This document shows positions 15,913-20,411 of a stretch of 25,866 nucleotides of DNA, piece by piece. The notes beneath the pieces are model-generated. The model was not told the DNA's origin, did no database searches, and saw nothing but the letters and a program-made list of their open reading frames with translations. The first letter of the stretch is position 1. Each line of letters begins with the position of its first letter. The DNA is taken from contig JADFJB010000061.1 in NCBI GenBank assembly GCA_022566355.1, forward strand, positions 1-25,866. Reading direction: 5' to 3'. Source of the stretch: a candidate division KSB1 bacterium. GTDB taxonomy: Bacteria > Zhuqueibacterota > JdFR-76 > DREG01. The translations under genes and the position numbers were made by a program.

Positions 15913-16285
15913 TTATATGTTCTTGCCAAATGTCAGCCTGTGGCCATTCAAATCAAATAAATTCAAAATCACGCATGCCATAATCACGGTTGGCAGGTTC
16001 CTGCATATTTACAATACCTTTCTGTTTAAATTCATGATAAACCGCATCCACATCATAAACAAAAATGAATAGTTGGTTAGGTTAAATTCCAACAGACCTG
16101 TTTTCTACTTTTGTAAAGTGGATTCCAATATCATCCCGCTTCACAACAGAATAATAAGGTGGATTGCCATATGTGAATGTGATGACAAAACCCAGGTAAT
16201 CTTTATAATAATTTGCTGTTTCTATGACATCCGGAACAGGAAATACTGGCGAAGAATGGCCGAATAATTTTGGATTTGAAATCAT
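15913..16285 (-). pseudogene. VOC/glyoxalase-superfamily gene, broken by a stop and a frameshift
   Basis: The product begins HSSPVFPVPDVIETANYYKD then YLGFVITFTYGNPPYYSVVKR, a typical VOC-fold start. It hits an in-frame TAA (16082-16084 complement) at residue 68, but the same frame then continues with the second half: PNQLFIFVYDVDAVYHEFKQ and MQEPANRDYGMRDFEFI. A second stop follows (TGA, 15953-15955 complement). Skipping one base there restores DLNGHRLTFGKNI and a natural stop at 15913. The restored length, about 123 residues, is the normal VOC size. Two independent lesions argue for a decayed gene rather than one sequencing slip. VOC proteins are metal-dependent dioxygenases, glyoxalases or antibiotic-resistance proteins; the substrate cannot be told here. 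Confidence 0.75.
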
Positions 16286-16352: not shown

Positions 16353-17006
16353 CTAGTCCAATGTTGCATTTCTGATCAAATCTTGCAATTGCCAATAATC
16401 ACTACGGACCGGCAATGCGCTTCTCATATTCCTCAAAACTTTTTGTATTGGTTTCTTGTTCGAAAATAGTTCCTAATGCATTGAAATCCCAATTGTTGTA
16501 AACCCAGTATTCTCCCGGATTCTGACTACCGTGCGGTGGTTTACCATCCCTGGTTTGCGGACTTTCTGCAGCTGCCGGCAGATAAATCCCGGACCTGGCT
16601 TTTAATAGATCGGAAATTTTTGCATGCTTTTCTGTTTCTGTCAAAGGATTTGGAGTGTCATCAATATTTAAGTCAGCCAGTGTCTTGTTCAAGTCAATAT
16701 TACCGAGATCTACATGTATACCATACATCGCACTGAGATAGCTTTTGCGAATCGAATGTACGAGGTATTTATATTCGATTTCACCCCAGGATGCGATAAT
16801 ATAGCCGTCATACAATACTAAGACTGCGGCGAACCAATTTCCTTGGAGAATTGTTCGGCCTCGTTTAATTTTGCCTCTGACCAGTCTAATTCTTCCGGGT
16901 TGGCCGTATCCAGCCAGGCCAATTCGATGTCACTGAAATTATTGGAGAGATCTTTGGAACAATGGGTTAAAAAGGAAAAAAGAAGACAGTACAGGATAAT
17001 TCGCAT
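16353..17006 (-). pseudogene. Lipoprotein serine hydrolase (class C beta-lactamase-like), frameshifted and truncated
   Basis: The first part starts with a lipoprotein signal (residues 1-16, LTHC lipobox) and reaches ...EAEQFSKEIGS before the frame breaks. The remainder continues in another frame as AAVLVLYDGYIIASWGEIEY, then HSIRKSYLSAMYGI, TLADLNIDD, LLKARSGIYLPA and PGEYWVYNNWDFNALGTIFEQ. Restoring one lost G near 16826-16832 rejoins GSAAVLVLYDG, the expected family sequence. The nucleophile motif S-I-R-K and the Y-N-N motif are both present. The coding frame then stops after KRIAGP, well short of the family's usual length. A short tail in another frame (YWQLQDLIRNATLD) may be the displaced C-terminus, which implies an internal deletion. 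Both lesions together indicate a pseudogene. Confidence 0.75.
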
Positions 17007-17399
17007 TTAATTTCTACTCAAATTATTCATCAAGGTTCTCCAGCATTCTTTTTGATTAAAAAGCTACAGACAAAATATCTGTGCAAACATATTACCGGCT
17101 GCAGTTTCACGTCTTACGTTTTATGAAAATAGTAAAAAATTAGGTAATCGCAAAATAAAGAATGGAGGACCGAAATATTTTGTCTTGATTTTGAATAACA
17201 AAAGGATATATCATGGTTCTAGGTATTGTGATAATTCAAAAGGGAATTATGTGGAAGTTGTAAAAAGTTTAGTGGACGCAGGCGCTAAAATTCAGGAGTT
17301 TATGATTCGGGAAGCTTCGGAGGAGGTGGGTAGGGTTTAGATAGATTTTCAATCGAAGAGGTAATATTAGTTTTATAATTTGCTTGTAGAATCATTTAA
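17007..17399. other. Gap with no intact gene
   Basis: This 393-base stretch has no intact gene. On the + strand an ankyrin-like fragment can be read at 17212-17340. The rest is AT-rich. Confidence 0.4.
17212..17340 (+). pseudogene. Ankyrin-repeat-like remnant
   Basis: The frame reads GNYVEVVKSLVDAGAKI followed by EASEEV and a stop at 17338-17340. This resembles the second helix and turn of an ankyrin repeat (G-x-x-E-V-V-K-x-L-x-x-A-G-A). Nothing like the rest of an ankyrin protein is found upstream; the frame is open back to about 17050 but the residues are not ankyrin-like. It is the only + strand gene trace in this part of the window. The similarity is short and the call is tentative. Confidence 0.35.
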
Positions 17400-17909
17400 T
17401 TAATAGAGATTTTTATATCCATGACGATGCATTAATGTATCAAATAAAGCTTTAAACTTTGCCATAACTGTAATTGAATCGGAAAGATTCATAAATTCAT
17501 AATCAAGTGGAGAAACTACTTGTTTGGTTTTTACGTCCTCCCATGGATATTCAGGATTTGGCTTTGGCATTCCACTTCCTGCCGGAGCAAGATTCTCAAT
17601 CATATCTGCTACTGGTATTAGACTGTCTATAAAATATCCAAATGCTTCGTGCTTTCCTTTAAAACCAAGCATATTTCTAATTTGAGGTAAACGCTTAATT
17701 GTTCGTAAATATCTTACTAACACAAAATGTGTCTTTTTTTCAGGTGGCTTATTTCCTTTACATAATTGAGATTTTGAAAATTTTTCAGTTGCCATTTGTA
17801 AATAATGCAATTGATGGCAAACAGGTTTTCTGTTTTTGGGTTTTTGGAATTCCTGGTAAATACTATAATCCGAAAACGCTTGTTTTAAATAGGCATCTTT
17901 CCAAGTCAT
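17400..17909 (-). CDS. HEPN-like protein, second gene of a coupled pair
   Basis: The 169-residue protein is mostly helical. Its N-terminus WKDAYLKQAFSDYSIYQEF, then CHQLHYLQMATEKFSKSQL, fits a HEPN-type helical bundle, a fold often found in RNases and toxin-antitoxin partners. The canonical HEPN Rx4-6H catalytic motif is not obvious; the nearest is RNMLGFKGKH, with eight residues between Arg and His, so catalysis is doubtful. A conserved-looking Pro-rich loop follows (SGMPKPNPEYPWEDVKT). I chose ATG 17909 because its A is shared with the preceding gene's TAA (TAATG), which implies translational coupling. The frame could extend 11 residues upstream but would overlap that gene. HEPN identity is inferred from pattern only. 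Confidence 0.6.
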   Translation of the reverse strand: MTWKDAYLKQAFSDYSIYQEFQKPKNRKPVCHQLHYLQMATEKFSKSQLCKGNKPPEKKTHFVLVRYLRTIKRLPQIRNMLGFKGKHEAFGYFIDSLIPVADMIENLAPAGSGMPKPNPEYPWEDVKTKQVVSPLDYEFMNLSDSITVMAKFKALFDTLMHRHGYKNLY

Positions 17910-18214
17910 TAATCGATCTCGAGTTCTTGCGCATCGTCCCAACTTCCCCAGTCATCAGGAAGTGATATTTTTTTAAATTCATCGCTTCGAATAATCGCAA
18001 CTCCGGAAGGTAACGGCAAATCATCCTTTGGTGAAGCATCGAAGTAAAATGGTTCTACAATTTTACTGCCTGATATGACAAAATCATCTTCAATTTCAAC
18101 AAGTCGAACTTCATCATCATTTGGAAACCAGAATATTTTCTTTATTTGAGGTTCACTCTTTTTATTGTCCTTCGCAAGCTTTATGGCTTGTTCTTCCACT
18201 TCTTTTCTTCCCAT
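17909..18214 (-). CDS. 101-aa acidic protein of unknown function, first gene of a coupled pair
   Basis: I do not recognise a named family. The sequence has a charged N-terminal helix (MGRKEVEEQAIKLAKDNKK), then a beta-rich segment (IKKIFWFPNDDEVRLVEIED), a middle segment IVEPFYFDASPKDDLPLPSG and a tail rich in Asp and Trp (LPDDWGSWDDAQELEID). The middle motif FYF-x-A-S-P-x-D-x-L-P-x-P-S-G-V looks strongly conserved. The start has a good ribosome site (AAAGG) about seven bases upstream. Its stop overlaps the start of the HEPN-like gene (TAATG). It lies about 48 bases after the broken antitoxin. An antitoxin or partner role for this small acidic protein is plausible but inferred. Confidence 0.7.
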   Translation of the reverse strand: MGRKEVEEQAIKLAKDNKKSEPQIKKIFWFPNDDEVRLVEIEDDFVISGSKIVEPFYFDASPKDDLPLPSGVAIIRSDEFKKISLPDDWGSWDDAQELEID

Positions 18215-18261: not shown

Positions 18262-18496
18262 TCATCCCCTAAGTCGATTTCTGATTTCTTTGAATACTTG
18301 TTTGCCATCTACGATTTCGATTTTGCCATCTTCATATTCTATTACACGTTTTTTCGCTTCTTCAGCCCTAAGACGATTTACTTCTGTTTGTATTGTCATT
18401 ATTAAGATTTTCTAATAGTCTCACCACTAATTCTGCCCTATCTCCACGTGGAAGAAGAAGAGCTTCTTTTACAAATTTTTGAGCTAACTCAGTCAT
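18262..18496 (-). pseudogene. TIGR02574-type antitoxin gene split by a frameshift
   Basis: The first part reads MTELAQKFVKEALLLPRGDR then AELVVRLLENL, the usual start of 'putative addiction module component' antitoxins of the TIGR02574 family. Its frame stops at 18368. The C-terminal half lies in the next frame (18262-18399): EVNRLRAEEAKKRVIEYEDG, then GKQVFKEIRNRLRG, matching the expected tail of the family. Together they give a near-normal length of about 75 residues, so a single indel near 18390-18405 split the gene. A ParE/RelE-like toxin normally follows; none does, and the coupled 101-aa/HEPN-like pair occupies the place. A programmed frameshift is possible but there is no clear slippery sequence. 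Confidence 0.7.
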
Positions 18497-18722
18497 GTTC
18501 AACCATACTTCAATATCTCTGCTCTCGAAAATAAATAAATTTAGGTTGGCATACAATAGTTATCTACACTTAGCATGTTAATTATGAACAAGATAAACAT
18601 TCTAAAATGATTTTTGTTATGAGAATTCGAAATCAACAAGTTAGCCGTGGAGCTTAACTCCATTATGGATGATGAAACAAAAAGTAAGGTTTTTTATATC
18701 TTGGCCATGCTGTAAAACCTGT

Positions 18723-19990: not shown

Positions 19991-20411
19991 TCAGGTACTT
20001 TCTTTTGTATTCATGTTTGAATTTATTATGTAAAAAACATGGGGAAGGCTTGCATAAATGATGTCTTTCTCATATTTAAATCCAATCTTTTCGATGACCC
20101 GCTTCGATGCAAGATTAGAAGGCAATGTAAAGGAAACAGTATCCGGCAACCTGAATTTTTCAAATCCAATCGATAATATTGCTGTCGCCATTTCGGTGGC
20201 TAAGCCTTTGCCAAAGTATTCAAATCGCAAAGTCATAAGCCAATTCGATTTCGGGATTGCCTTCTATTTCAGTATTGTGCAGACCGGCTCGACCAACAAA
20301 CCGATTTTCTACCTTGTTTCGAAACATCACAAACCATAAGTCATCGAGGTGCAATCGTCTTGCAGACATTCGATCCGTGGCAAATATTTCGATGGATTTG
20401 TCTAATATATT
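19991..20411 (-). pseudogene. GNAT (RimJ/RimL-like) acetyltransferase gene with deletion and frameshift
   Basis: The N-terminal trace reads IFATDRMSARRLHLDDL, then directly WFVMFRNKVENRFVGRAGL and NPEIELAYDFAI before stopping at 20220. In the next frame the conserved acetyl-CoA-binding region continues (RFEYFGKGLATEMATAILSI, then LASKRVIEKIGFKYE). In RimJ/RimL-like proteins roughly 40 residues separate the first two segments, so an internal deletion is likely as well as the frameshift. No good start codon is present for the first segment. The C-terminal ORF (19991-20236) alone could not fold into the enzyme. Confidence 0.7.

Follow-up and report, generated by a model that had tools for sequence, protein, structure and literature searches.

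We found that two small, overlapping genes of a candidate division KSB1 bacterium, here named P1 and P2, form what predicted folds and sequence comparisons indicate to be a divergent MNT-HEPN-like module, with the canonical chemistry apparently missing from both partners. The pair, of which we found no description in the open-licence literature searched, is probably a hitherto undescribed toxin-antitoxin variant. On balance, we favour the reading that it is a horizontally spread MNT-HEPN-like toxin-antitoxin module in which P1 would neutralise P2 by binding and P2 would act via RNA or translation. An earlier note on this DNA had proposed a small two-component toxin-antitoxin or defence module of no nameable kind. 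The nucleotidyltransferase fold predicted for P1 now gives the module a kind, because a P1 with the MNT fold makes the pair a divergent relative of the MNT-HEPN modules rather than one without relatives. The features discussed below are collected in Table 1, where positions refer to the window, that is, the whole stretch of 25,866 nucleotides of contig JADFJB010000061.1 that was analysed.

Table 1. Positions of the P1-P2 pair, its motifs and the neighbouring remnants in the window
Feature	Position	Strand	Description
P1	17909..18214	-	101 aa; ATG 18214, TAA 17909; upstream gene; proposed antitoxin, predicted degenerate nucleotidyltransferase (MNT/KNTase) fold
P1 beta-1 and following turn (IFWFPN, residues 27-32)	18119..18136	-	place of FGS in MNTs
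P1 beta-2 (EVRLVE, residues 35-40)	18095..18112	-	DxD strand of MNTs
P2	17400..17909	-	169 aa; ATG 17909, stop 17400; downstream gene; predicted HEPN fold; proposed toxin
P2 Ex3K motif, helix 2 (E42, K46)	17772..17786	-	E42 in 100% of 52 members, K46 in 96%
P2 His61, loop after helix 2	17727..17729	-	invariant; aligns with the alternative histidine of HEPN-T/AbiV
P2 NxEYPW (residues 118-123), loop after helix 3	17541..17558	-	invariant
Broken PF09720-type antitoxin	18265..18556	-	upstream; split between two frames; outside the module
Decay fragments: beta-lactamase-family, glyoxalase-like (weak), GNAT acetyltransferase, perhaps NUDIX	16402-16815, 16082-16285, 19991-20236 (-); 17119-17340 (+)		

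Both open reading frames are intact and share one base in a TAATG, in agreement with the earlier description of two intact, overlapping small genes. Homologues from other genomes keep the frames (P1 at 18-56% identity, P2 at 24-41%), and both genes are under purifying selection, with dN/dS values of about 0.02-0.25 for P1 and P2 alike when near relatives are compared. Thus, P1 and P2 are real genes. In direct searches, neither protein passed any cut-off in Pfam, NCBIfam, PADLOC, PHROGs or the PDB sequences, and neither received a name from the first four of these libraries. The window contains about as many promoter and terminator matches as chance would predict. The inverted repeats in the window are all short, and none lies upstream of P1.

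A P2 profile scanned against the contigs of 84,980 species yielded 56 loci in about nine bacterial phyla, the hosts being, by record title, Planctomycetota, Armatimonadota, Chloroflexota, Acidobacteriota, Pseudomonadota, delta-type proteobacteria (Desulfobacterales), Lentisphaeria, Sumerlaeota and KSB1. At 55 of the 56 loci, P2 is immediately preceded by P1, with a gap of -19 to +17 nt and usually an ATGA junction; at the single locus without an upstream P1 (L046) the contig stops there. When P1 was the starting point instead, the searches again recovered the pair, together with a few orphan P1 genes, and in two other genomes of the window's phylum we found 14 P1 paralogues, nearly all of them followed by P2 or a P2 remnant. 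The distances within the two families are correlated (mirror-tree r 0.80, a value reached by none of 2000 permutations), and P1 is the more divergent partner (mean identity 0.276 vs 0.349 for P2). No third gene recurs around the 56 loci, where the genes other than P1 and P2 belong to common families such as response regulators. It is therefore well supported that P1 and P2 form one unit, and of the module claimed earlier the two-gene part stands on observation, while a toxin-antitoxin function is its best reading. Variants of the module exist: two P1 genes stand in tandem before one P2 in locus L039 (4334-4992), and two complete pairs stand in tandem in locus L024 (866-2568). Two further copies of the pair, L014 and L012, lie 3.7 kb apart on contig C153 of genome G080, each next to a serine/threonine kinase that carries TolB-like repeats, and look as if kinase and pair had been duplicated together. 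Three planctomycete P1 sequences (L035, L040 and L045) have an apparent N-terminal extension of 30-45 residues.

P1 is predicted to have the MNT/KNTase nucleotidyltransferase fold. It was modelled alone by AlphaFold2 (pLDDT 94.5), as a joint P1-P2 mixed alignment misplaced the P1 rows. The best Foldseek matches of the model, with weak E-values, are nucleotidyltransferases, MntA chains included, and after VIA realignment all 50 rows belong to the nucleotidyltransferase superfamily. The best rows are the N-terminal domain of KNTase, ANT(4'), with Z 8.3-8.5 over 89 aligned residues (rmsd 2.7-2.8 Å); further rows include the archaeal MNT 2rff (Z 6.5), Rel, polymerase X, OAS1 and Cid1. A viral structure library again returned nucleotidyltransferases, none of them close. 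KNTase itself carries a HEPN-like C-terminal domain (PMC3710099) but, unlike P1, it is an active single-chain enzyme, whereas in P1 the DxD site is devoid of catalytic acids. At the sequence level, P1 has no Pfam match to PF01909 or PF18765, and hhalign to MNT sequences gives a non-significant 2%; within this insignificant match a tiny stretch, 'IKKIFWFPN', is in register with the FGS strand (beta-1) of MNTs. The GSX10DXD active site was not found in the 71-member alignment of the P1 family. When the DxD positions are mapped by strand order, none of the 71 members has acids at both, and the second position is R, K or H in 69.

P2 is assigned to HEPN by predicted fold and by profile, in line with what the earlier note had seen in it. 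For the AlphaFold2 model (pLDDT 90.7), Foldseek ranks the sacsin HEPN domain first, with a weak E-value of 0.9. The best seven VIA-align rows are all HEPN, namely the sacsin HEPN domain (Z 6.9), HepT (6.7), AbiV (6.5), HepT again (6.4 and 6.3), the AbiA C-terminal domain (6.1) and HI0074 (5.5), with 106-136 residues aligned at rmsd 3.9-5.0 Å, while the eighth row is a non-HEPN designed protein (Z 4.8 over 49 residues). A Z near 7 is modest for a helical bundle and can be reached by chance; therefore, we place weight on the unmixed HEPN ranking and on the profile evidence. The profile comparison that the earlier note had proposed gave an hhalign value of 90.6% for P2 against PF05168 members from related genomes, vs 1.2% for the reversed control. 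Neither rare adjacency of the two families nor a lack of HEPN similarity by profile, the two outcomes that the earlier note had named as speaking against its reading, was observed. PF05168 itself matches 8 of the 52 P2 members weakly (best E 5e-4), always under the curated cut-off. Ordinary PF05168 HEPN genes adjoining nucleotidyltransferase genes, some of them interrupted by stops, are found on three contigs (C129, C112 and C48) of genome G000.

The canonical Rx4-6H, which the earlier note had already described as lacking, is not conserved anywhere in the 52-member P2 family, and the NxEYPW loop occupies its place. The 'RKPVCH' at residues 27-32 of P2 is a chance occurrence, being unconserved and away from the catalytic position. 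The family shares the Ex3K motif of HEPN, as defined in PMC3710099, and has an invariant polar set of Q10, Q38, E42, H61, N118, E120, Y121 and W123, joined by the nearly invariant K46. At about 35% identity among the 52 sequences, eleven positions are invariant, as would be expected of a functional site more than of a decayed one. Among the closest known systems is HEPN-T (PF05168, including class II MNT-HEPN), which P2 resembles by profile over helices 1-2, in the Ex3K motif, in the alternative conserved histidine and in the 'YP' loop after helix 3. In contrast to HEPN-T, all P2 sequences have a glutamate for the arginine of 'RYP' (E120, in a part of the alignment that is of low confidence), P2 scores under the Pfam cut-off, and its partner P1 has no MNT motifs.

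The distribution of the pair is patchy. Of 82 genomes from the window's own phylum, 3 have P2, and of 392 from Planctomycetota, 6 have P1, while one genome holds ten P1 copies, and many copies are decayed. The nearest relatives of the window's pair sit in other phyla: in a tree made by a quick method (support 96, six-row set), it groups with Thiotrichales and Planctomycetota pairs, apart from the copies of its own phylum. Horizontal transfer is a simpler reading of this tree than a history of paralogues. A search of plasmids returned neither P1 nor P2, and one of phages returned no P2; among viral contigs, P2 has one match, a pair at the start of a contig, and the P1 search gave none. Both genes are intact at 57 loci. 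One gene is damaged at 16 non-edge loci, with P2 broken or missing beside an intact P1 in 15 and the reverse in one (binomial 0.004, gene length allowed for); the loci behind this count are not independent of each other, and erroneous frameshifts may account for some of the P2 breaks seen in metagenome bins. In two other KSB1 genomes, where searches started from P1 as well as from P2, eight pairs are intact, six loci retain an intact P1 only, one has both genes broken and none has P2 alone. This asymmetry fits a toxin that is lost first.

From the antitoxin-first gene order, the patchiness, the presence of up to ten copies in a genome, the faster evolution of P1 and the 15-to-1 decay, we infer a toxin-antitoxin function with P2 as the toxic partner; we further propose neutralisation by binding and an RNA target. 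Alternatively, P1 and P2 might be the subunits of a regulatory or processing complex, in which P2 would be a HEPN that binds RNA without catalysis, as has been proposed for inactive HEPNs of the MtlR type, with P1 as an obligate partner. The loss of Rx4-6H from P2 and the purifying selection on both genes agree with such a complex, as does the observation that HEPN domains paired with nucleotidyltransferases are often non-catalytic and substrate-binding (PMC3710099). However, patchiness and up to ten copies in a genome, many of them decayed, are not typical of a housekeeping complex, P1 is also retained as an orphan gene where P2 is absent, and no operon partner recurs; we consider this explanation rather unlikely. 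An abortive-infection phage defence of the AbiV type, in which P2 would stop translation upon infection and P1 would keep P2 inactive, is distinctly improbable. There is no PADLOC match, no recurrent defence-gene neighbour at the 56 loci, a single match among viral contigs and none on plasmids for either gene. AbiV itself is not known to be paired with a P1-like gene, and a sequence match of P2 to AbiV was not found, no AbiV model being among the Pfam matches of the P2 members. What speaks for this type of defence is that AbiV is among the best structural matches of P2 and, like P2, is a HEPN protein that lacks Rx4-6H but has an alternative histidine (PMC3710099).

The favoured toxin-antitoxin reading places the pair next to MntA-HepT, the type VII toxin-antitoxin system. 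An MNT-HEPN module usually begins with the nucleotidyltransferase gene, which encodes the antitoxin (PMC3710099), and MntA AMPylates a tyrosine of HepT through GSX10DXD (PMC7641770). P1-P2 shares with MntA-HepT the adjacent genes, the predicted nucleotidyltransferase fold in the first and HEPN fold in the second product, and the patchy, multi-copy occurrence. It differs in that P1 has no GSX10DXD and P2 no RX4HXY, and in that the sequence match of P1 to MNTs is insignificant. With both motifs missing, neither AMPylation nor canonical RNase cleavage is to be expected. Since P1 does not have the catalytic GSX10DXD, AMPylation should be impossible and neutralisation by binding is the likeliest alternative. 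In the proposed mechanism, P1, having lost this site, would neutralise P2 through binding instead of AMPylation, and P2 would inhibit growth via RNA or translation, through its invariant polar set, when P1 is in short supply. P1 might instead still be an active nucleotidyltransferase with rearranged catalytic residues that modifies P2, perhaps at Tyr121, as MntA does HepT at Tyr104. The predicted fold, the invariance of Y121 in 52 of 52 P2 sequences and the often acidic positions E35 and E40 of P1 are in favour of such an enzyme, which we regard as very improbable nonetheless: with no acidic pair at the DxD positions, an active MNT is not supported, the second metal-binding position is basic in nearly all members, and in the window protein the loop where GSX10 would be expected comprises just a few residues.

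The pair lies among decayed genes, as the earlier note had observed, and fragments of a beta-lactamase-family gene, a GNAT acetyltransferase gene and, weakly, a glyoxalase-like gene were found around it. The broken antitoxin seen upstream is likewise real: one piece matches PF09720 at profile positions 2-22 and a second, in another frame, at positions 24-54, both with scores under the curated cut-off. No RelE/ParE-type toxin is left beside it. The suggestion that the pair takes the place of the toxin of this antitoxin did not hold up: although the remnant shares the strand of the pair and is found about 50 bp upstream, it is hardly conceivable that P2 is its orphaned toxin, and we rejected this candidate, because an antitoxin of this type is not a recurrent neighbour at the other loci, while P1 precedes P2 in 55 of 56.

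More specifically, we tentatively suggest that P1 could be a pseudo-nucleotidyltransferase antitoxin that controls, by binding alone, a HEPN toxin in which a new active site (H61, E42, K46, N118, E120 and Y121) replaces Rx4-6H, so that a lineage of the MNT-HEPN modules would have given up both known chemistries. A multi-phylum relative without the AMPylation site and without the RNase site would show that a pair of the MNT-HEPN type can work differently. It would also bear on how HEPN proteins without Rx4-6H act, which two publications, from 2013 (PMC3710099) and 2020 (PMC7641770), have asked. The pair also yields a motif for searches, NxEYPW next to an ExRLxE protein, which is absent from the domain and defence libraries searched here.
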